Of a stretch of DNA of 64,000 nt, positions 903 to 60,277 are shown in pieces. A model generated the notes under the pieces. It made no database searches and had not been told where the DNA came from. It saw nothing but the letters and a program-made list of their open reading frames with translations. The stretch's first letter is position 1. Each line of letters starts with the position of its first letter. Source of the stretch: Candidatus Saccharibacteria bacterium (GTDB lineage Bacteria; Patescibacteriota; Saccharimonadia; Saccharimonadales; Saccharimonadaceae). The stretch spans positions 248,001 to 312,000 of the forward strand of contig CP066696.1 in assembly GCA_016432585.1 (NCBI GenBank), written 5' to 3'. A program made the position numbers and the translations under genes.

Positions 903-3020
903 ATGGATTTACTTAAAGACCTCAATCCCGCGCAGGCTGACGCGGTAAAAACGACGTCCGGCCCGCTTCTTATTTTGGCGGGTGCGGGCAGTGGCAAGAC
1001 AAAAACCTTGACGCACCGAATAGCATATTTGATTGCAAACGAAGGTGTATGGCCAAACGAAATATTAGCCGTAACGTTTACGAACAAAGCCGCTAAAGAA
1101 ATGCGCGAGCGTCTGGGGCATTTATTGCAGCAAGACGGTAGCGCCAGGCAATTTATGCCCTGGATGGGGACATTTCACGGTATTTGTGTGCGGCTGCTTC
1201 GTATGGACGGCGACAAAATCGGCATATCGCCAAACTACGTCATTTACGACGAAGACGATCGCCAAGGTCTCATAAAGCAGGCTATGAAACAGCTGTCGAT
1301 TACCGACAAGCAAATCAAACCGCGCGCAGTAAGTAGTGCGATTTCAAATGCAAAAAACGAACTTCGATCGCCCGAGGAATTTGCCGCGCATGCTAACTAT
1401 CCGTTCGAAAAAGAAGTTGCCAAGATCTATACGCTTTACGAAAAGATGCGCATCGAGGCTGGCGCGCTCGACTTTGACGACCTGCTAATAGAGGCGGTCC
1501 GCTTATTCCGCGATCACCCAGAAGTTCGTGCAAAATGGCGTACGCAGTTCAAGCACATTCTTATCGATGAGTACCAGGACACGAACGCCGCGCAGTACGC
1601 AATCGTTAAAAGTCTTGTCGGCGAAACACGTAATATTTGTGTTGTGGGCGACGACTGGCAATCTATTTATAGCTGGCGAGGGGCTGATTTTACGAATATT
1701 TTGAACTTTGAGCGGGACTTTCCTGGGGCAAAAATCGTGAAACTCGAACAAAACTACAGAAGTACAGGCTCAATCCTTGAGGCCGCGCATAGTGTTATCA
1801 CTAAAAACGTGCAACGATCCGAAAAAAAGCTTTGGACAGCCGAGCCTGCGGGCGCGCCCGTGCAGGTTCACCCTGTGTACGATGAAAGCGAAGAGGCGTA
1901 CATGGTTGCCAGCCGAATCAACGCGCAGGCAAGTATCGGTGCGCGCAAATATGGTGATTTTGCCGTGCTGTACCGTATGAACTCGCAAAGTTACACTCTA
2001 GAGCGAGCGCTGTTGCAGCACAGGATACCGTATCAAATTGTGGGCGGTGTACGTTTTTATGATCGTAAAGAAATTAAAGATGTTATTGCGTATCTTCGTT
2101 TGTTATATCAGCCGAACGACCGCATGAGTTTTAGTCGTATTGTGAATATTCCGACGCGTGGAATCGGCGCGACAAGCCTCGAGAAGTTTCTTACGTGGCA
2201 GGCAACAAGTGGATTTGATATTATTTCAGCGCTTATCAATGTCGAACAAACGTCTAGCCTTACGCCTCGTGCAAAAATGGCGTTCGCCCGGCTGGGTGAT
2301 CTGCTACGGGGGTTGCAGGCAAAGTTGCAGTCCGATAAATCTCCGACAGATATCATTGAATCGCTTATCGAAAAAACAGGCTACCGCGATTTTATTTTAG
2401 ATGGCACTCCGCAGGCTGAAGAGCGCGAAGCAAACATTGGGTCGCTGGTTTCTGACGCCAAGGCCTTTGCGACGCTGCCCGATTTTCTCGAGGAAGTCGC
2501 ATTGATGTCGAGTGCCGATACAAGTAGTAACGAGCAAAAAGTAACGCTCATGACAATCCACGCAGCAAAAGGACTCGAGTTTCCAGTGGTGTTCATGGTG
2601 GGTATGGAAGAGGGGGTATTCCCAACAGCGCGCGTGTACGAGGCTGGTCCGAACGAACTCGAGGAAGAGCGCAGGCTTTGTTATGTGGGCATGACCCGCG
2701 CCCGTGAAGAGTTGCATCTTAGCTACGCGCAAAGCCGTTTACAGTTTGGACAGCGTGGCTACAACCCGGCATCACGCTTTTTGGCAGATATGGGCCATGA
2801 AGTAGCCGAAGCGCCAGCTGTGTCGTTTACGGCTAAAAATACCGGTGAATACGATGAATTTAGCGATGTGCCGGCATTTGATATTGGCGATAGTGTTCGT
2901 TCGGCACAGTTCGGTATTGGCGAGATAGTCGATATCGACGGAATGGCCGTAACGATTGAATTTGCATCGGGCCAAACGAAGAAGTTGAACGTCGAGTACG
3001 CTCGTCTTGAAAAAATCTAA
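903..3020 (+). CDS. pcrA: ATP-dependent DNA helicase UvrD/PcrA
   Basis: Superfamily 1A 3'-5' DNA helicase used in nucleotide excision repair, replication restart and removal of proteins from DNA. Walker A AGAGSGKT lies at residues 26-33, the Q motif LNPAQADAV at about 8, Walker B LIDEYQDTN at about 219, motif III VVGDDWQSIYSWRG at about 247, and motif V/VI residues VTLMTIHAAKGLEF and YVGMTRAREEL near the C-terminal third. The tail after residue 660 (SAQFGIGEIVDIDG) matches the Tudor-like C-terminal domain of PcrA, favouring PcrA over Rep. At 705 residues the length is normal. A -10 box TATACT at 890-895 lies 7 bases before the ATG with no Shine-Dalgarno, so a leaderless transcript is inferred. 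uvrA, uvrC and ligA also lie in the window. Confidence 0.95.
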   Translation: MDLLKDLNPAQADAVKTTSGPLLILAGAGSGKTKTLTHRIAYLIANEGVWPNEILAVTFTNKAAKEMRERLGHLLQQDGSARQFMPWMGTFHGICVRLLRMDGDKIGISPNYVIYDEDDRQGLIKQAMKQLSITDKQIKPRAVSSAISNAKNELRSPEEFAAHANYPFEKEVAKIYTLYEKMRIEAGALDFDDLLIEAVRLFRDHPEVRAKWRTQFKHILIDEYQDTNAAQYAIVKSLVGETRNICVVGDDWQSIYSWRGADFTNILNFERDFPGAKIVKLEQNYRSTGSILEAAHSVITKNVQRSEKKLWTAEPAGAPVQVHPVYDESEEAYMVASRINAQASIGARKYGDFAVLYRMNSQSYTLERALLQHRIPYQIVGGVRFYDRKEIKDVIAYLRLLYQPNDRMSFSRIVNIPTRGIGATSLEKFLTWQATSGFDIISALINVEQTSSLTPRAKMAFARLGDLLRGLQAKLQSDKSPTDIIESLIEKTGYRDFILDGTPQAEEREANIGSLVSDAKAFATLPDFLEEVALMSSADTSSNEQKVTLMTIHAAKGLEFPVVFMVGMEEGVFPTARVYEAGPNELEEERRLCYVGMTRAREELHLSYAQSRLQFGQRGYNPASRFLADMGHEVAEAPAVSFTAKNTGEYDEFSDVPAFDIGDSVRSAQFGIGEIVDIDGMAVTIEFASGQTKKLNVEYARLEKI

Positions 3021-3087
3021 TTGACAAAACTATAATTCAATAGCAAAATACACTTTGTCAGTGCCATTTTACTGGGAGGTGTTCGTT

Positions 3088-3339
3088 ATGGCCGATGTGT
3101 CGGTCGAGGAACTGCTGGGCATGCCCGAACTGGGCGACCGGCAGGGTACGTTCGTACTGCACGCCTACTACTGCGCTGTCAACCAGCCGCAGCAGTGCGT
3201 GTACATCACCACCAACACCCGCCCGTCGCCGGGCCGGTCGGCCTGCGTGGTGCACGGCGCTGCGTCCATGCGGAAGGCAGACGTCATCAGCGTGGGCGGC
3301 GTGAACCACCGCAAGGATCGGCCCGAGTGGTCTAGCTGA
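3088..3339 (+). CDS. Small GC-rich unknown protein (83 aa)
   Basis: Not recognised. The start at 3088 (MADVSVEELL) is chosen over the earlier in-frame GTG at 3061 and other upstream triplets because GGGAGG sits 8 bases before it. The protein has a short acidic N-terminus and a Cys-containing centre (YYCAVNQPQQCVYI, then a third Cys in SACVVHG), and no membrane segment or signal peptide. All four Leu codons are CTG and both Ile codons ATC, in sharp contrast to the neighbouring helicase. A TATAAT at 3031-3036 with TTGAAA at 3007-3012 (18-base spacer) could be its promoter. Four strong hairpins follow the stop. It converges on another GC-rich gene. One of eight such genes here; foreign origin is an inference. 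Confidence 0.7.
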   Translation: MADVSVEELLGMPELGDRQGTFVLHAYYCAVNQPQQCVYITTNTRPSPGRSACVVHGAASMRKADVISVGGVNHRKDRPEWSS

Positions 3340-3389
3340 CGGGTATCCGTAAGAGGGCTAGTCATAGCTAATCTTGCGCATGCCCAGAT

Positions 3390-3478
3390 GACTCCACAGA
3401 GTCGTCGCCCTGCGCCGCTCAGTAATGACGGGTGGCGCAGGGTTGTGAATACGATTTAAAGGAGACGCCAAAGCGTCT
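3390..3478 (+). other. Three consecutive perfect hairpins downstream of the GC-rich gene
   Basis: GACTC/GAGTC (3390-3403, loop CACA), CCCTGCGCC/GGCGCAGGG (3408-3416 with 3434-3442) and AGACGC/GCGTCT (3463-3478, loop CAAA) follow each other before the large terminator at 3489. Together they make about 140 bases of structured 3' RNA, or a small RNA of their own. AAAGGAG at 3458-3464 resembles a Shine-Dalgarno site but leads to no ORF. Confidence 0.5.
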
Positions 3479-3488
3479 TAAAACTATC

Positions 3489-3533
3489 GGCCGTCCGCCG
3501 CCTCAGGAATTCTGAGGTAGCGGACGGCCTTTT
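3489..3533. terminator. Bidirectional terminator between convergent GC-rich genes
   Basis: GGCCGTCCGC (3489-3498) pairs perfectly with GCGGACGGCC (3520-3529), and an inner CCTCAG/CTGAGG extends the stem. TTTT follows on the plus strand and GATAGTTTT on the minus strand. It separates the 3088 plus gene from the 3549 minus gene. Confidence 0.85.
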
Positions 3534-3548
3534 GAAACAAGTGCAACC

Positions 3549-3722
3549 TCAGGCGGTGACTGCCATGCTGCGCCGCCATGCGTCGCGCTGAAGGTAGGGT
3601 GAAATCGATCGTCCGATCACCCAAGGCCCCAGCTTGCTTGCGCCGCGGATTGCCCGTCGGCCTCGCGCTGTTCTTGCAAGACGACGGTTGGCGCGTGCCA
3701 AAAGCCGATCATGATTCTTCAT
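3549..3722 (-). CDS. Small arginine-rich basic protein (57 aa)
   Basis: Reading the minus strand from 3722 gives MKNHDRLLARANRRLARTAR..., ending ...RRSMAVTA before a TGA at 3549-3551. AAGGAG stands 5 bases before the ATG, and a TTGACG-N17-TATGAT promoter lies upstream at 3800-3828, so it has a complete expression unit despite its size. About a quarter of the residues are Arg or Lys, and the predicted charge is strongly positive. It could bind nucleic acid or act as a membrane-active peptide, but no family is recognised. Codon use is GC-rich like the 3088 gene, with which it shares the terminator at 3489-3533. A 78-codon frame on the opposite strand (3578-3814) has no ribosome binding site and is treated as a shadow. 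Confidence 0.65.
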   Translation of the reverse strand: MKNHDRLLARANRRLARTARGRRAIRGASKLGPWVIGRSISPYLQRDAWRRSMAVTA

Positions 3723-3799
3723 GTCACTCCTTGTACGACCGTAACGAACTGTTCAGATCGTTACGCTGCTACGTAGTATCGTGCAAATGTTCGAAACAT

Positions 3800-3828
3800 A
3801 TCATATACCCATAAATCGCTTACGTCAA
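3800..3828 (-). promoter_or_regulatory. Sigma-70 type promoter for the 3549 minus gene
   Basis: On the minus strand TTGACG (3828-3823) and TATGAT (3805-3800) are separated by exactly 17 bases. The predicted leader is about 70 bases and carries the AAGGAG site. Confidence 0.7.
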
Positions 3829-3868
3829 TTAAACAGTGGGCAAACTACCCAAACCCTGGTATTTTTGA

Positions 3869-3912
3869 TATACTTTTTCTATGTAGCGCCATGTGAGGTG
3901 TTGCCCTAATTT
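3869..3912 (+). promoter_or_regulatory. -10 box and short leader with two start-stop elements
   Basis: TATACT at 3869-3874 would start transcription near 3881, where the sequence is ATGTAG (start then stop). A second start-stop, ATGTGA, lies at 3891-3896. GAGGTG (3895-3900) is 12 bases before the ATG of the RpfB-like gene at 3913. Confidence 0.4.
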
Positions 3913-5097
3913 ATGAAGAGTATAACCAAAAAATCTTCCACGCCGGTAGGCATAGTCGTTGCTGTGCTCTTGCTTGCTATTGTCGTACTTGGCAGTATTG
4001 TTTCTTCGTATGCCCAGGCGGCGTCACCATCGCTTTCTGCAGGTCAGCGCCTCATTACTGTCCACGATCGTGGTCGCGACAGGGGTATTCTTACTCATGC
4101 TACGACGCTTCGGGCCGCATTTGAGGAAGCGGATATCACGATTGATCCAAACGATACGGTCGAACCTGGGCTCGATGATGAACTGGTGGCAACTAATTAC
4201 GATGTTAATATTTACCGTGCACGCCCAGTAACGATTATCGACGGTGCTGTTCGCGAAAAAGTAATGTCGCCATATCAAACCGCCAAACAAATCGCTAAAC
4301 AGGCAAATATTACCCTTCACGACGAAGATACGGCAACGCTTAGCGCAAGTACCGACATGGTTAGCCAGGGCGCGGGCGTACAGCTGCATGTTACTCGTGC
4401 GACATCATTTAAATTGGTGCTGTATGGTAACGAAACAACTGCCTATACCCAACAAAAAACGGTTGGGGATATGCTCAATGAAAAGGGGATTGTTGTTGGC
4501 GTTGGCGATACACTCTCACAACCGCTTACTGCCGAAATTCACGAGGGCATGAAAGTAGAGCTATGGCGTAACGGTAAGCAAACGGTGACGAAAAAAGAGA
4601 AGATCGCGTTTCCTATCGAACAAATCCAGGACGCTGACCGTGAAGTTGGCTACAAAAAAATCACTACGCCGGGCGTAAAGGGCGTAAAGTCTGTTACCTA
4701 CGAAATTATCATGAAGAATGGTAAAGAGGTGAGTCGTAAAAAGATTCAGAGTGTCGTGCTTGAGAAGGCGCAAAAGCAGGTAGAGATTGTGGGTGCAAAG
4801 GTCGAAGGTCCTGAAGAAATCATGTCAAAGATTCGTTCCGCCGCCGCAGCCAAAGGTATTGACGCTCAGCGCGTATTGCTAATTGCCCGATGTGAGAGTG
4901 GATTCAACCCTCGTTCTGATAGCGGGTTTTATAAAGGACTCTTCCAGCACGATCCAAATTACTGGCCTAGTCGAGCGGCGCGTTACGGCTTTGCCGGAGC
5001 TTCATACTTTGATGTAGATGCTCAGATAGGCGTTTCAACAAGCATGATGGCTGGCGGTGGCTGGTCGCACTGGGGCTGTGACCCGGGACCTCAATAG
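3913..5097 (+). CDS. RpfB-like secreted muralytic protein (DUF348-G5-transglycosylase)
   Basis: A membrane-anchored or secreted peptidoglycan hydrolase, probably acting on its own wall or that of a host bacterium. Residues 13-36 form an N-terminal hydrophobic segment ending in SYAQA. Three DUF348/YabE-type repeats follow (roughly 48-90, 102-150, 163-205; each carries an 'L..LT..TTLRAAFEEADI'-like core), then a G5 domain at about 215-292, and a C-terminal lysozyme-like domain from about 305 (LLIARCESGFNPRSDSG..GLFQ). The Glu in CESGFNP fits the catalytic Glu of the SLT/resuscitation-promoting-factor fold. The layout matches actinobacterial RpfB and firmicute YabE. It ends one base before rsmA, so the two are likely co-transcribed. 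Substrate and target cell are not shown by the sequence. Confidence 0.85.
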   Translation: MKSITKKSSTPVGIVVAVLLLAIVVLGSIVSSYAQAASPSLSAGQRLITVHDRGRDRGILTHATTLRAAFEEADITIDPNDTVEPGLDDELVATNYDVNIYRARPVTIIDGAVREKVMSPYQTAKQIAKQANITLHDEDTATLSASTDMVSQGAGVQLHVTRATSFKLVLYGNETTAYTQQKTVGDMLNEKGIVVGVGDTLSQPLTAEIHEGMKVELWRNGKQTVTKKEKIAFPIEQIQDADREVGYKKITTPGVKGVKSVTYEIIMKNGKEVSRKKIQSVVLEKAQKQVEIVGAKVEGPEEIMSKIRSAAAAKGIDAQRVLLIARCESGFNPRSDSGFYKGLFQHDPNYWPSRAARYGFAGASYFDVDAQIGVSTSMMAGGGWSHWGCDPGPQ

Positions 5098-15131: not shown

Positions 15132-15437
15132 CTAGAACAGGGAGTGGATCACGTGCAGGACGAATCCCGCGGTGAGGACGCCTAGTATCGGACAGAGCGA
15201 GTGGGCTATCACCGCCACGTAGATCACGGGGCGGATTGCTCGTATCCACACACTTGCGATGTACAGCAGGCCGCTGATGATGATCCCGACAACGCCAAGT
15301 ACTCCGGTGAAGAAGGCGAGGTCGGAGTAGAAGCCCAGCGGAACGACCACGAGAGCTATCACGAACAGGATCGTGGTGATCACGCCGTTCGTGATATGCA
15401 GTCGCTGCCATTCGTCTTCGGTAAGACCAAGGTTCAT
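15132..15437 (-). CDS. Small GC-rich membrane protein (101 aa)
   Basis: Not recognised. The start MNLGLTEDEWQRLHIT at 15437 is chosen because GAAAGAGGT precedes it; in-frame Met codons further upstream lack such a site. Three hydrophobic helices are visible (about residues 18-38, 42-63 and 72-98), after a short polar N-terminus with Trp and His. Codon use is GC-rich, unlike pilM or alaS on either side. It is the second gene of a two-gene minus-strand operon, 16 bases after the 15454 gene, and ends at the strong terminator at 15061-15118. Confidence 0.75.
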   Translation of the reverse strand: MNLGLTEDEWQRLHITNGVITTILFVIALVVVPLGFYSDLAFFTGVLGVVGIIISGLLYIASVWIRAIRPVIYVAVIAHSLCPILGVLTAGFVLHVIHSLF

Positions 15438-15453
15438 GCGTACCTCTTTCGGG

Positions 15454-15762
15454 TTAGCCGGAAGCCTGTCTTCCGGAGCGGTAGAGCCATATGCATGCGG
15501 CAATGATCGCCGCAAGAAAGATAACTGCGCAACCGCCTGTCGGAAGATAGATATCCACTAGGCGGTTTACATGCACCGGAATCTCGGTGAATGTGCAGTC
15601 GAACGGGTTGTGCGTAGGACACTCGGTGCGGAACGCTTTGGTTTTCGCTGCCTCCTGAATTGCTTTGCTCTCCCAGTAATTGTAAATCTGCTGTACGCCC
15701 TTGGTGTAGCCAATGGCGACAAGCAGACCACCAACTACCGAGATGATGCGCCAGAACTTCAT
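15454..15762 (-). CDS. Small GC-rich membrane protein with two helices (102 aa)
   Basis: Not recognised. MKFWRIISVVGGLLVAIGYT starts at 15762, preceded by GGAAGGAG. One helix lies at residues 5-22 and another at about 72-93, with an extracytoplasmic-looking loop between them containing two Cys (RTECPTHNPFDCTFTEIP) that could form a disulfide if exported. It is the first gene of the operon from the consensus promoter at 15799-15827. Together with the following three-helix protein it may form a small membrane complex (inference from operon and topology only). Confidence 0.75.
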   Translation of the reverse strand: MKFWRIISVVGGLLVAIGYTKGVQQIYNYWESKAIQEAAKTKAFRTECPTHNPFDCTFTEIPVHVNRLVDIYLPTGGCAVIFLAAIIAACIWLYRSGRQASG

Positions 15763-20397: not shown

Positions 20398-20758
20398 AAC
20401 TTGACAATTTTACATTCTATAAAATAAATTGACATACTTTGCAATAGCTGATACACTGTTTACAGCACATTTGTGAGTTCGTCTGCCAATGCCTGTCTGT
20501 GACAGCATCTGCGGGTGGAAAGCGAGCCATAAATGAGCCTACCAAAAATGTCGCTACGGGTATTGAATAAAGAACTTTTCAACTAATAATAATTAATGAA
20601 ATCGGTCGACACACATACCCTGTTCTTAAATTGCGAGAAGAAAGACAAAGTAAGGTAGACGCCTTTGTAGTAATACGAATGGCAGGAGAACAATAATTAG
20701 TAATCATCAAACCGTTCTGAGCTCAGCTCAAGCGTCAGCTGCCGAGTTACGGCAACAA
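20398..20758 (+). other. Long untranslated leader region of the LysM-CHAP gene
   Basis: About 360 bases without a convincing gene. Two promoter-like TTGACA boxes occur (20402-20407 and 20431-20436), with GATACACT near 20449 a reasonable -10. What follows (20460-20690) is a mix of GC-rich blocks (CATCTGCGGGTGGAAAGCGA) and AT-rich stretches, possibly a structured leader. I could not fit it to a riboswitch class I know. GGAG at 20685-20688 precedes an ATT codon at 20696 that is in frame with the hydrolase. Confidence 0.4.
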
Positions 20759-31033: not shown

Positions 31034-31288
31034 ATGACTCAAGAGATCGAATTCGTCGTGCTGAGCACCGTCGCCATCGTCGTAAGCTGCCCGGGTGCCA
31101 CCCACTACAAGGTGGGCGAGGCCATGGAGCGCAGCGGACTGCTGATGCCGAACGGCTTCACGACGGCGAGCACGCTGCCGAACACGGCTGTCATGATGCC
31201 CGCTGCGGGCGTCAACCAGGCCACGGTGATGACTCGGCTCCTGAAGGAGATCGAGAGTCTCGTCGCCAGCGGCGAGGTTCGCATCTGA
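31034..31288 (+). CDS. Small GC-rich unknown protein (84 aa)
   Basis: Not recognised. GAAGGAG ends 5 bases before the ATG. The protein begins MTQEIEFVVLSTVAIVV, then SCPGATHYKVGEAMERSGLL and NGFTTASTLPNTAVMMPAAG, ending with a helical EIESLVASGEVRI. It looks like a small alpha/beta domain, and the single Cys next to Pro-Gly is notable. No TTA, TTG or CTT Leu codon is used, unlike rplY before it and the ABC genes after it. It has its own promoter (30950-30978) and a bistable hairpin after the stop, so it is a stand-alone unit. Confidence 0.7.
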   Translation: MTQEIEFVVLSTVAIVVSCPGATHYKVGEAMERSGLLMPNGFTTASTLPNTAVMMPAAGVNQATVMTRLLKEIESLVASGEVRI

Positions 31289-34916: not shown

Positions 34917-34960
34917 AAGTTTTCCTTAGCATGTGAAATTTAATGTTTGTATCGCTAGTG

Positions 34961-34976
34961 GTTCGGCCGTCCGAAC
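34961..34976. promoter_or_regulatory. Palindrome upstream of the ABC exporter operon
   Basis: GTTCGG (34961-34966) and CCGAAC (34971-34976) flank CCGT, 45 bases before the exporter start on the minus strand. It could be an operator; no T-run supports a terminator. Confidence 0.35.
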
Positions 34977-35087
34977 GTGAACGAATAGAGGATCAGCGAT
35001 TGATCATAGTGCTACCAGTATAGCAACCGACGTTACGCCGCACAAGCGTATATGCTAAAAACTCTAAAAAATGGTATAATTGCACGT

Positions 35088-56679: not shown

Positions 56680-57021
56680 CTACCAGCTACGCTGACGGAA
56701 TGAACCGCCACCGTTGCCACCGCGATCACCACCACGGTCGTTTCCACCGAAGTCACGACGAGGTCGGTCTTCTTTTGGACGAGCTAGACCAACGCTAATA
56801 GCGCGGCCGTCAAGCTCTTTACCGTCGAGTTGATCTACAGCTTTTTGGTTGTCTGCTTCGTTTTCGTATTCAACGAAACCAAAGCCCTTGCTACGACCGC
56901 TATCACGATCAGTGATAACACGTGCGCTAGCAACGGGACCAATTTGCGCAAAGTGCGCCTTCAAACCATCATCGTTAGTAGCGTAAGCTAGGCTACCGAT
57001 AAAAAGATTTTGCTGTGCCAT
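56680..57021 (-). CDS. RRM-domain RNA-binding protein
   Basis: Single RNA-recognition motif (1-80) with RNP2 LFIGSLAY and RNP1 KGFGFVEY, followed by an Arg/Gly-rich tail (DFGGNDRGGDRGGNGGG, ending SFRQRSW). Such proteins bind mRNA and often act in cold or stress; cyanobacterial and other bacterial relatives are known. At 113 residues it is complete. On the mRNA a perfect 11-bp stem (57095-57085 with 57037-57027) ends 5 bases before the AUG and contains the purine-rich AAGAAAAGAG that would serve for ribosome binding, suggesting autoregulation or a thermosensor (inference). Confidence 0.92.
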   Translation of the reverse strand: MAQQNLFIGSLAYATNDDGLKAHFAQIGPVASARVITDRDSGRSKGFGFVEYENEADNQKAVDQLDGKELDGRAISVGLARPKEDRPRRDFGGNDRGGDRGGNGGGSFRQRSW

Positions 57022-58247: not shown

Positions 58248-58286
58248 AACTAGCGATCACGTCCGTTCAAGTAGCTGGAGTGTGTG

Positions 58287-58475
58287 ATGAACAAGAAACT
58301 GTTGAGTCTCGGCATCGTGGCAGCGCTGGTCGCCGGCTACGCAGCGGCGCGCAACCGTCACGTGCTGGCCTCGGCCGCCTCTACCGGTCGCGACCGTGTC
58401 AAGGCCATCACCGACAAGGTGGGTCGCCGTCGGCGCAATGCCCCGGAGGGAGAGGAGCAGGCGTCCGACGCCTGA
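58287..58475 (+). CDS. Small GC-rich basic protein with N-terminal helix (62 aa)
   Basis: Not recognised. MNKKLLSLGIVAALVAGYAA forms a single membrane helix or signal segment, followed by RNRHVLASAASTGRDRVKAI and a basic/acidic end (KVGRRRRNAPEGEEQASDA). The start at 58287 follows TGGAG; a GTG three bases earlier is also in frame. It resembles small YtxH-like membrane proteins in layout only. An overlapping frame from 58280 is rejected because its codon use is random. A perfect 15-bp hairpin (58501-58554) follows. Confidence 0.7.
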   Translation: MNKKLLSLGIVAALVAGYAAARNRHVLASAASTGRDRVKAITDKVGRRRRNAPEGEEQASDA

Positions 58476-58805: not shown

Positions 58806-59597
58806 ATGTTACGAGGCAAGAGTGACAAAGATGGCCAAGACCAGACGACCGAGGAGGTTGAGCTGACGCTCACTGAGTTGCAGCGTCGCCGTATTGCGGG
58901 CGAGGCGAGACGAGCGGCCAGGGAGGCGACGGCGCAGTGGGCGCTGGAGCACCTGCCGCACAAATCGGCTCCTCCGAATGTTCAGGTGGTCGCGGCATGG
59001 TTGATGACCCTGCGTGACCTCCAGGACTTCCACGCGAACGTCCTAAGAGAAGGGAGTGTCGACCGCATCAACGCCAGTGTCGAGTTGCACTGGGGTGGGA
59101 GTGTGTCGCGCAAGCGACTGTCGGGCGGTAGAATCCACCGCATGTTCGGCCCTAAGGAGATGTCGGGCTCGTTCGAGGACAGCATGTTGGTTCTCGCACG
59201 AGCATTCTGCAACTACTCTGCATCAGATGAGATTCACGAGATTCGTGAGTCAAACTGGATGATTCTGGTTCCGGTCGTGTCGGATCGTGAAGGAATTACC
59301 GATCGTATCTACGTTCACAAGGCGCAACGTGGCTCGGTGATCGAGCAGGCGGTGCGTGAGATGCGGTCTCTTGGCGAGCTATTCGCGCGCGATGAAGAAG
59401 CGCGTGAAGGCCGTCGCCAGCATGGCCGACAGCTCATGGACCGTCAACTGGCAATTGCTGTCGCGGGCGCCCTGGGTCACCAGAGAAGCCTCAAGCAGGT
59501 GTACGACAAGACCTACGAGGAGACGTTCGAGGCCCGAAGGGCAGAGATTCTTGACGGCGGTCAGCCCAAGAAGAGTCGCCGCCCTTGGCGGCGCTGA
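58806..59597 (+). CDS. GC-rich unknown soluble protein (263 aa)
   Basis: Not recognised. GAGGAG lies 8 bases before the ATG. The N-terminus is charged and helical (VELTLTELQRRRIAGEARRA), the middle has an alpha/beta-looking stretch (SVDRINASVELHWGGSVSRK, MILVPVVSDREGITDRIYVH) and the C-terminal third is again helical (LFARDEEAREGRRQHGRQLM) ending in KKSRRPWRR. High Arg content and CTG/ATC/GTC codons set it apart from typA. It has its own promoter, and a 13-bp hairpin follows. It may act on nucleic acid given its charge; no catalytic motif was found. Convergent with the membrane gene at 59753. Confidence 0.75.
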   Translation: MLRGKSDKDGQDQTTEEVELTLTELQRRRIAGEARRAAREATAQWALEHLPHKSAPPNVQVVAAWLMTLRDLQDFHANVLREGSVDRINASVELHWGGSVSRKRLSGGRIHRMFGPKEMSGSFEDSMLVLARAFCNYSASDEIHEIRESNWMILVPVVSDREGITDRIYVHKAQRGSVIEQAVREMRSLGELFARDEEAREGRRQHGRQLMDRQLAIAVAGALGHQRSLKQVYDKTYEETFEARRAEILDGGQPKKSRRPWRR

Positions 59598-59611
59598 CCT
59601 GATGTTTGCAC

Positions 59612-59645
59612 GCCGCGGCGTCATCGCTATGTATGACGCCGCGGC
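59612..59645. other. Hairpin after the 58806 gene
   Basis: GCCGCGGCGTCAT (59612-59624) pairs perfectly with ATGACGCCGCGGC (59633-59645) around CGCTATGT. The plus strand lacks a following T-run. Confidence 0.7.
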
Positions 59646-59663
59646 ACGCAGCAATTTGAATAT

Positions 59664-59684
59664 AAAAAAGACGCCCTAGGGCGC
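59664..59684 (-). terminator. Terminator of the 59753 minus-strand gene
   Basis: On the minus strand GCGCC-CTAG-GGCGT is followed by C and TTTTTT (59669-59664). Confidence 0.75.
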
Positions 59685-59708
59685 AAAGTAATTATTTAGG
59701 TGGCTCTT

Positions 59709-59748
59709 CGGCCCAGCCACACCCGAGGATCCGGGCGCAGCTGGGCCG
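59709..59748. other. Second hairpin after the 59753 gene
   Basis: CGGCCCAGC (59709-59717) pairs with GCTGGGCCG (59740-59748), with CCCG/CGGG inside. It begins 5 bases after the stop of the minus-strand gene. Confidence 0.7.
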
Positions 59749-59752
59749 ACTG

Positions 59753-60277
59753 TTACGAGATGGTGCGCTCGAAGAGCCAGCCGACGACGATCGCGAAGAC
59801 GTTGTTGATACCCGTCAGGACGGAGTATCTCCAGATCTCCAGCGCGTCGCCCACCCACGGAACCAGGGTCGCCATGACCGTCATGGCCAGTCCGAAGATG
59901 AGGCCGTCCCAGAACAGCTTCTCGGACTTCATGTACTTCAGACCCAGGCCGATGGCCAGGGCGAGAGTAATGACGACACCCGAGATGTTCCAGGTCACGC
60001 TCAGGCCAGTTCCGAGTTCGTTGGCGAGTTCGCCGAGCCTGTCAGACAGGCTCCCGATCAGCTTGGTGTCCTGCAGTGTTGAAACTGCAGCCGCCGTCGT
60101 GACCAGAACCAGGATCTGGGGTAGGCGGTTGATCCCCTTGACGCCGGGGATCTTGTCGGCCCACATGTCCAGCAGGATGACTCCGACCAGCGCGAGGCCG
60201 AACTGAATCATCCACGGGTCCACCTCGACGGGTTCGAAGAGGTGGGGCGGTGCTGCGAGAATGGATAAGGTATTCAC
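59753..60277 (-). CDS. GC-rich multi-helix membrane protein (174 aa)
   Basis: Not recognised. The GTG start at 60277 is preceded by GGAAGGAAG. About five helices are seen (residues 24-38, 52-68, 95-115, 125-142 and 150-170), with a periplasmic-looking Pro-rich N-terminus (MNTLSILAAPPHLFEPVEVD) and a loop TKLIGSLSDRLGELANELGT. Uniform CTG/GTC/GCC usage is far from that of typA next to it. The opposite-strand frame at 59700-60206 is a shadow. It might belong with the 58806 protein (convergent neighbours), but nothing else shows a partnership. Confidence 0.75.
   Translation of the reverse strand: MNTLSILAAPPHLFEPVEVDPWMIQFGLALVGVILLDMWADKIPGVKGINRLPQILVLVTTAAAVSTLQDTKLIGSLSDRLGELANELGTGLSVTWNISGVVITLALAIGLGLKYMKSEKLFWDGLIFGLAMTVMATLVPWVGDALEIWRYSVLTGINNVFAIVVGWLFERTIS

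Follow-up and report, generated by a model that had tools for sequence, protein, structure and literature searches.

A small gene with a predicted five-hairpin 3' end in a Candidatus Saccharibacteria genome, one of a set of GC-rich orphan genes

Small zinc-finger-like proteins and small RNAs derived from 3'-UTRs are the classes with which the protein and the RNA of the locus described here may be compared. Clustered hairpins acting as intrinsic terminators were described by Gupta and Pal (2021; PMC8355165), and in that work the clusters consist of adjacent hairpins near the stop codon (less than 15 nt apart, within ~80 nt of the stop, with stems of 2-10 bp), are said not to need a T-run and are favoured in GC-rich DNA; the same work cites tandem hairpins behind the gyrA gene of M. 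smegmatis, which gave better termination than single ones. With regard to base composition, bacterial genes gained by horizontal transfer often have a higher AT content than the genome (PMC7229825), and PMC12102498 describes Saccharibacteria as living on actinobacteria and having a conjugation-like type IV system.

The stretch analyzed here in full (64 kb, hereafter the window) is part of a single-contig genome of 952,504 bases with a GC content of 48%. Two ORFs, one of 83 aa (3088-3339, plus strand) and one of 57 aa (3549-3722, minus strand), converge on positions 3340-3548, as a preliminary description of the window had reported; its convergent pair of mini-genes is replaced here by a single gene whose 3' end carries five hairpins, the 57-aa frame being unsupported. 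Upstream of the 83-aa ORF lies a gene (903-3020) which, from our own reading of its sequence, we take to be pcrA/uvrD, and downstream a gene (3913-5097) whose product, a secreted rpf-like protein, has DUF348 and G5 domains. The best promoter-like site of the region, a consensus match at 11 of 12 positions (TTGAAA-N18-TATAAT, 3007-3036, plus strand) that the preliminary description had overlooked, overlaps the end of pcrA, and a consensus scan listed a second one, TTGACA-N17-CAAAAT, on the same strand (3021-3049). These are followed by a Shine-Dalgarno-like GGGAGG (3074-3079, plus strand), 8 nt ahead of the ATG. The GC content by codon position of the ORF (0.64/0.49/0.87) follows a coding pattern, with a GC3 of 0.869 compared with 0.46-0.52 in its neighbours.

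Full-length relatives of the 83-aa protein were found in two other genomes, G023 (E 7.9e-10) and G053 (E 1.9e-4). A profile built from these same three sequences had three convincing members among 394 family genomes, namely this genome, G023 and G053; a fourth match, in G153, was weak and carried an internal stop, and nothing beyond this genome was matched among 379 genomes drawn phylum-wide. Residues L9, F22, V23, A26, C29, P34, C37, R50, C53, H56, G71 and R75 were invariant across the three relatives, including all positions of the pattern C-x7-C-x15-C-x2-H found in this genome (C29, C37, C53 and H56, invariant in 3/3). Taken together, the promoter, the GC3, the two full-length relatives and the invariant residues mark the 83-aa ORF as a genuine gene. 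Its amino-acid score, which fell within the lowest 3.7% of real segments and the top 6.2% of shadow segments, would speak mildly against this; the low value is partly explained by the penalty that the score places on cysteine.

Based on the Cys/His pattern, the product is probably a small metal-binding protein. The AlphaFold2 model obtained from the three sequences showed a small beta-rich fold (pLDDT 80, pTM 0.71), for which Foldseek found no convincing match (best E 0.46) and VIA-align a best Z of 3.5, with several rows for MCM N-domains (Z 2.1-2.7) that were too weak. The best profile matches among solved structures were designed repeat proteins aligned over ~23 residues and were rejected as relatives. 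Pfam, PHROG and NCBIfam gave no match to the protein, and PDB no convincing one. A phage or plasmid origin was discarded for this protein (P0001), as phages and plasmids yielded no match at E <= 1; viral contigs searched with the protein and with its alignment, as well as PHROGs, gave none either. Genome contigs had no match to the single protein, and with the alignment only the G023 record, RYN_404, was recovered, in scans that need short conserved segments, so that remote relatives escape them.

Among the 30 loci examined, the interval between pcrA and rpf measured just 72-119 nt in 12 relatives and was longer in this genome and eight others, most of which contained extra genes there; in the rest, pcrA was not found near rpf. 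The relative of the 83-aa gene in G023 occupies this same interval, upstream of rpf. By our own reading of the sequences, the interval presumably holds a glutamine-amidotransferase-like gene in G023 (L003 1819-2553) and G036 (L027 interval), and presumably NUDIX-like genes in other relatives. It is a recurrent gene insertion site, where genes are gained and lost. The leaders of the 83-aa gene (3021-3087) and of rpf (3862-3912) have GAGGTGTT in common, and both are similar to the one leader, that of rpf, seen in relatives (e.g., L025); the 83-aa gene looks as if it had taken or copied the rpf leader.

Five hairpins follow the ORF on the plus strand, separated by gaps of 1, 0, 18 and 9 nt. Hairpin 1 (3341-3385; 18 pairs, bulged), which starts 2 nt past the stop codon, is succeeded by hairpin 2 (3387-3406; 8 pairs), hairpin 3 (3407-3443; 16 pairs, wobbles included), hairpin 4 (3462-3479; 7 pairs) and hairpin 5 (3489-3529; 17 pairs with one mismatch), the last one leading into TTTT (3530-3533). 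The preliminary description had counted four perfect hairpins and missed the larger one at 3341-3385. All four were present on the plus strand, yet only 3390-3403 (5 bp) and 3463-3478 (6 bp) proved perfect; in 3408-3442, a 9-bp core is perfect and wobble pairs lengthen it, and 3489-3529 is made of 10 bp, one C.A mismatch and 7 bp. The extension of the first of these, 3390-3403, to 8 bp (3387-3406) had also been overlooked.

The earlier suggestion that the structured spacer may be an RNA was supported, more strongly than first stated, as the predicted fold surpassed that of shuffled sequences and was specific to the plus strand. The folding energy of the 209-nt spacer was -113 kcal/mol on this strand, against an average of -65 for shuffled sequences (z -9.75; 0/200 shuffles folded as well), while the minus strand folded less strongly (z -5.94). 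Moreover, when 264 kb of this genome, including a stretch (L060) with the genes for RNase P RNA and tmRNA, were divided into 10,495 windows (194 nt each), positions 3340-3533 showed the lowest GC-corrected residual, and also the lowest folding energy in the 64-kb window. G-U pairs numbered 9 in the predicted plus-strand fold of 3340-3533 and 1 in the minus-strand fold; since a G-U pair on one strand is a mismatch on the other, this difference fits selection on the plus-strand RNA. The structured region 3340-3533 is therefore read as a plus-strand RNA.

No match to the hairpin region was found in Rfam at either gathering or lax thresholds, which discards the known RNA classes. Elsewhere in the window, Rfam matched lysM-TM7 RNA and MDR-NUDIX RNA (20537-20688 and 34952-35010). 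Only short, chance-like matches to the spacer DNA were obtained from 198 family genomes, and a covariance model covering the initial 108 nt of the spacer recovered 1 of the 198, which was the sequence itself; covariation of the five hairpins was tried and yielded no homologous sequences. A strong GC-rich hairpin with trailing T's was also present downstream of each of the two relatives of the 83-aa gene (17 pairs in G023 and 11 in G053). The G023 spacer did not align with the one studied here (score 16.0, shuffled mean 16.3), and that of G053 was mildly structured (z -1.8).

We propose, with a probability of roughly 60%, that the locus is a single transcription unit, in which the mRNA of the 83-aa gene ends in a clustered intrinsic terminator. 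Transcription would proceed from the promoter-like site at 3007-3036 into an mRNA composed of a leader of ~45 nt (from the predicted start site), the 83-aa ORF, the five hairpins and TTTT. The hairpins would fold in order while leaving the RNA polymerase, which would be stopped at the latest by hairpin 5, at TTTT 3530-3533; the cluster would thereby keep the 83-aa gene insulated from the downstream rpf and shield the message at its 3' end. The analysis shows the ORF with its relatives, the base composition, and the predicted fold with its strand preference; both termination and 3'-end protection by the five hairpins, like metal binding by the protein, are functions that we infer. Because a promoter scan of the plus strand listed no site in 3050-3340, the spacer is taken to be the terminal part of the mRNA of the 83-aa gene and not a free-standing RNA. 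Hairpin 5 is the most terminator-like of the five: it is followed by TTTT and then GAAAC, that is, 4 T in 8, and was omitted by a terminator scan that required 5 T in 8. An energy of -113 kcal/mol and five hairpins far exceed what termination requires.

The GC richness noted in the preliminary description was correct and turned out to be the property of a gene class. In 264 kb of this genome (the window plus ten 20-kb stretches), 21 small GC3-rich genes were listed (GC3 0.67-0.91, compared with a mean of 0.48), and the 83-aa gene belongs to this set. Their common build consists of an AT-rich promoter region, GC-rich codons and strong hairpins after the stop. Nearly all of them are orphans, with 2 matches in Pfam and 1 in PHROGs among the 21 (E <= 0.01), while 24 ordinary small control genes matched 48 families, a figure that counts families and not proteins with a match (25 controls had been drawn and L059 680, antisense to a GC-rich gene, was dropped). 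The list was hand-picked from GC islands, leaving aside those within ordinary long genes (L052, L053, L056 at 15476, L059 at 13926), those without a clear ORF (L056 at 8701 and 18051, L058 at 11451 and 11876), and the islands L058 1-1675 and L059 6926. An automatic rule also yielded 21 genes, omitting the hand-picked L055 7729, L056 4187 and L061 3930 and adding three, of which L055 7708 is doubtful, as it overlaps L055 7729 on the opposite strand.

Over the 150 nt past the stop, the median z was -3.59 for the 21 GC-rich genes and -0.85 for 167 controls (p 3.9e-8). Values below -3 were found in 13 of the 21 and in 27 of the 167, and none of the 167 controls was as low as the 83-aa gene. Controls are probably often located inside operons, so that the difference in 3' structure may partly be one between single genes and operons. 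With the automatic rule the values were -3.9 vs. -0.9 in this genome (21 genes), -5.0 vs. -0.2 in 100 kb of G023 (10 genes) and -2.8 vs. -0.7 in 100 kb of G015 (6 genes), and 100 kb of G034 contained no such genes; the strength of post-stop hairpins in GC-rich genes thus recurred in 2 of the 3 other genomes sampled.

Within the window, GC-rich genes of 63 aa (58284-58475, plus strand; a 22-pair hairpin starts 27 nt past its stop), 263 aa (58806-59597, plus strand) and 174 aa (59753-60277, minus strand) cluster around a tRNA-Ala and are separated by giant hairpins, across which the latter two genes converge. Other members are an 84-aa gene with a 28-pair hairpin (31034-31288, plus strand) and a gene with a 127-aa frame of uncertain start (15132-15515, minus strand). 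Two adjacent GC-rich genes, L055 5796-6179 and 6238-6540, are weak mutual paralogs (blastp E ~1e-9), and the GC-rich 70-aa protein encoded at L058 7706-7918 shares 32% identity over ~70 aa (E ~7e-4) with the RNA-binding-like protein encoded at 56680-57021 of the window. No description of GC-rich, hairpin-ended orphan genes in Saccharibacteria was found in the literature searched.

A possible origin of the class, compatible with the other readings and judged appreciably less than even in likelihood, is that GC-rich genes and hairpins were recently imported together with their own terminators, the donor having a high GC content (for instance, the actinobacterial host or its phages). A GC3 of 0.67-0.91 against a mean of 0.48, the scarcity of family matches (Pfam 2 and PHROGs 1 among 21, vs. 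48 families among 24 controls) and a codon choice shifted to CTG/CTC, AAG, GAG, GAC and ATC, which we take to resemble that of high-GC bacteria, would agree with import. Nevertheless, the 83-aa gene occupies the same interval in G023, P0001 had no phage or plasmid relatives, no phage relatives were found for P0004, and no plasmid relatives for P0005 and the 213-aa gene of L055. The 174-aa gene also argues against a recent arrival: it has a syntenic ortholog in G023 (72% identical residues), the gene lying beside typA in both genomes, and identity at the 72 shared four-fold sites was 0.375, compared with 0.333 expected if they were independent, yet GC at four-fold sites was 0.81 and 0.78 (0.37 and 0.27 in the neighbouring typA). 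As synonymous sites are saturated and still GC-rich, the gene is old and its GC content maintained. A 19-pair hairpin a few nt past the stop was present in both genomes (-39.6 and -40.9 kcal/mol), with unrelated sequences and retained structure. Judging from these sequences, GC bias and 3' hairpin of the 174-aa gene are maintained, a statement that applies to this one gene of the class. The 83-aa gene was rejected as proof of maintained GC, the pair with G023 sharing just 12 four-fold sites and the G023 copy being less GC-rich (0.75 vs. 0.50). Native codon optimisation was discarded as the cause of the bias because ribosomal-protein genes of the same genome, recognised by eye around an L14 match, showed ordinary GC3 (0.40-0.54). 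The GC richness of at least the 174-aa gene is kept by something beyond ordinary codon optimisation.

The main rival to the clustered terminator, which we consider unlikely, is a stable small RNA, either processed out of the 3' region of the mRNA or transcribed separately, that would act on other messages or on a protein, only its last hairpin being a terminator. It draws on the marked strand preference, on a residual lower than that of any other of the 10,495 windows, with RNase P RNA and tmRNA genes among the DNA sampled, and on a folding energy far above terminator need; since the structure surpasses what termination requires, a small RNA derived from the 3'-UTR keeps some plausibility. Against it stand the lack of listed plus-strand promoters in 3050-3340, the lack of sequence or structure relatives in 198 family genomes and of Rfam matches, and the fact that other genes of the class carry strong post-stop hairpins with no alignable sequence in the pairs compared. 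This last pattern across the class favours a generic role at the 3' end.

Still less probable is the arrangement of convergent mini-genes put forward in the preliminary description, in which a basic 57-aa protein would be produced from the minus strand and the hairpins would act as a two-way terminator. The TTGACG-N17-TATGAT match claimed for this ORF is present, as a candidate, on the minus strand (3828-3800), AAGGAG is readable ahead of the frame, and both stand in register with an ATG; good folding was likewise predicted for the spacer on the minus strand (z -5.94), and a convergent pair flanking giant hairpins does occur at 58806-60277. However, the frame, earlier regarded as a credible gene, had a flat GC content by codon position (0.64/0.64/0.59), with no coding signal, and an amino-acid score below that of 99.6% of real segments, typical of shadow frames. 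A lack of conservation, one of two results that the preliminary description had named as evidence against this gene, was what the search of 198 family genomes returned, with no credible relative: the 11 non-self matches at E <= 0.1 were weak, 7 of them had stops, and the best one, in G195, overlapped a 709-aa ORF that by our reading is presumably PriA-like. This organism's genus is represented by this genome alone among those searched with the frame. In the minus direction, moreover, no T-run directly follows the fifth hairpin. Between the minus-strand promoter-like site and the ORF, an inverted repeat (3740-3765) whose perfect 8-bp arms, CGTAACGA/TCGTTACG, lie 10 nt apart could be an operator. 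A type I toxin-antitoxin system was considered and set aside; neither the 83-aa nor the 57-aa peptide resembles a hydrophobic toxin peptide.

The boldest reading, named because of the actinobacterial lifestyle and the conjugation-like type IV system of Saccharibacteria, and in our view very improbable, is that these bacteria keep a second gene set in a GC-rich dialect, maintained by selection in opposition to the composition of the genome itself and delivered as DNA or mRNA to the actinobacterial host. If true, the set would amount to several dozen small lineage-restricted genes (extrapolated from 21 in 264 kb), the purely conjectural delivery would take place via the conjugation-like type IV system, codons and terminators would suit the host machinery, and the 83-aa gene with its five hairpins would be one such host-directed unit. 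The recurring GC-rich, hairpin-ended orphans are of more interest than the single locus. A reduced epibiont carrying GC-rich orphans with exceptional RNA 3' ends is the opposite of the usual AT-rich acquisitions, and such genes are candidate members of the little-understood toolkit with which Saccharibacteria live on actinobacteria; the 83-aa locus, as the extreme of 3' structure in the class, is easy to test.

Compared with zinc-finger-like proteins, the 83-aa family is alike in having three Cys and a His that do not vary among its three sequences, and differs in the lack of a match in Pfam, PHROG and NCBIfam or a convincing one in PDB. The locus shares with 3'-UTR-derived small RNAs a structured plus-strand 3' region with a terminator-like last hairpin and a short ORF upstream; unlike them, it showed no conservation of 3340-3533 among 198 genomes. 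The class resembles the acquired genes treated in PMC7229825 in that accessory genes of deviant composition are found here too, although the deviation of these orphans runs the other way, towards a GC content above that of the genome, and has persisted through saturated divergence in the single case open to testing. As for the clusters characterised in PMC8355165, the hairpins are likewise adjacent, the first one 2 nt past the stop and within the ~80 nt described, and hairpins 1-3 and 4-5 lie within the limit of <15 nt, while the 18-nt gap between 3 and 4 exceeds it. Three of the five stems (18, 16 and 17 pairs) are longer than the 10 bp given there, the genome is just 48% GC in contrast to the GC-rich setting favoured by such clusters, and many other long hairpins of this genome, unlike those clusters, are flanked by A- and T-runs. 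The five-hairpin region most likely works like a cluster terminator, a likeness of function that we do not extend to strict membership in that class.
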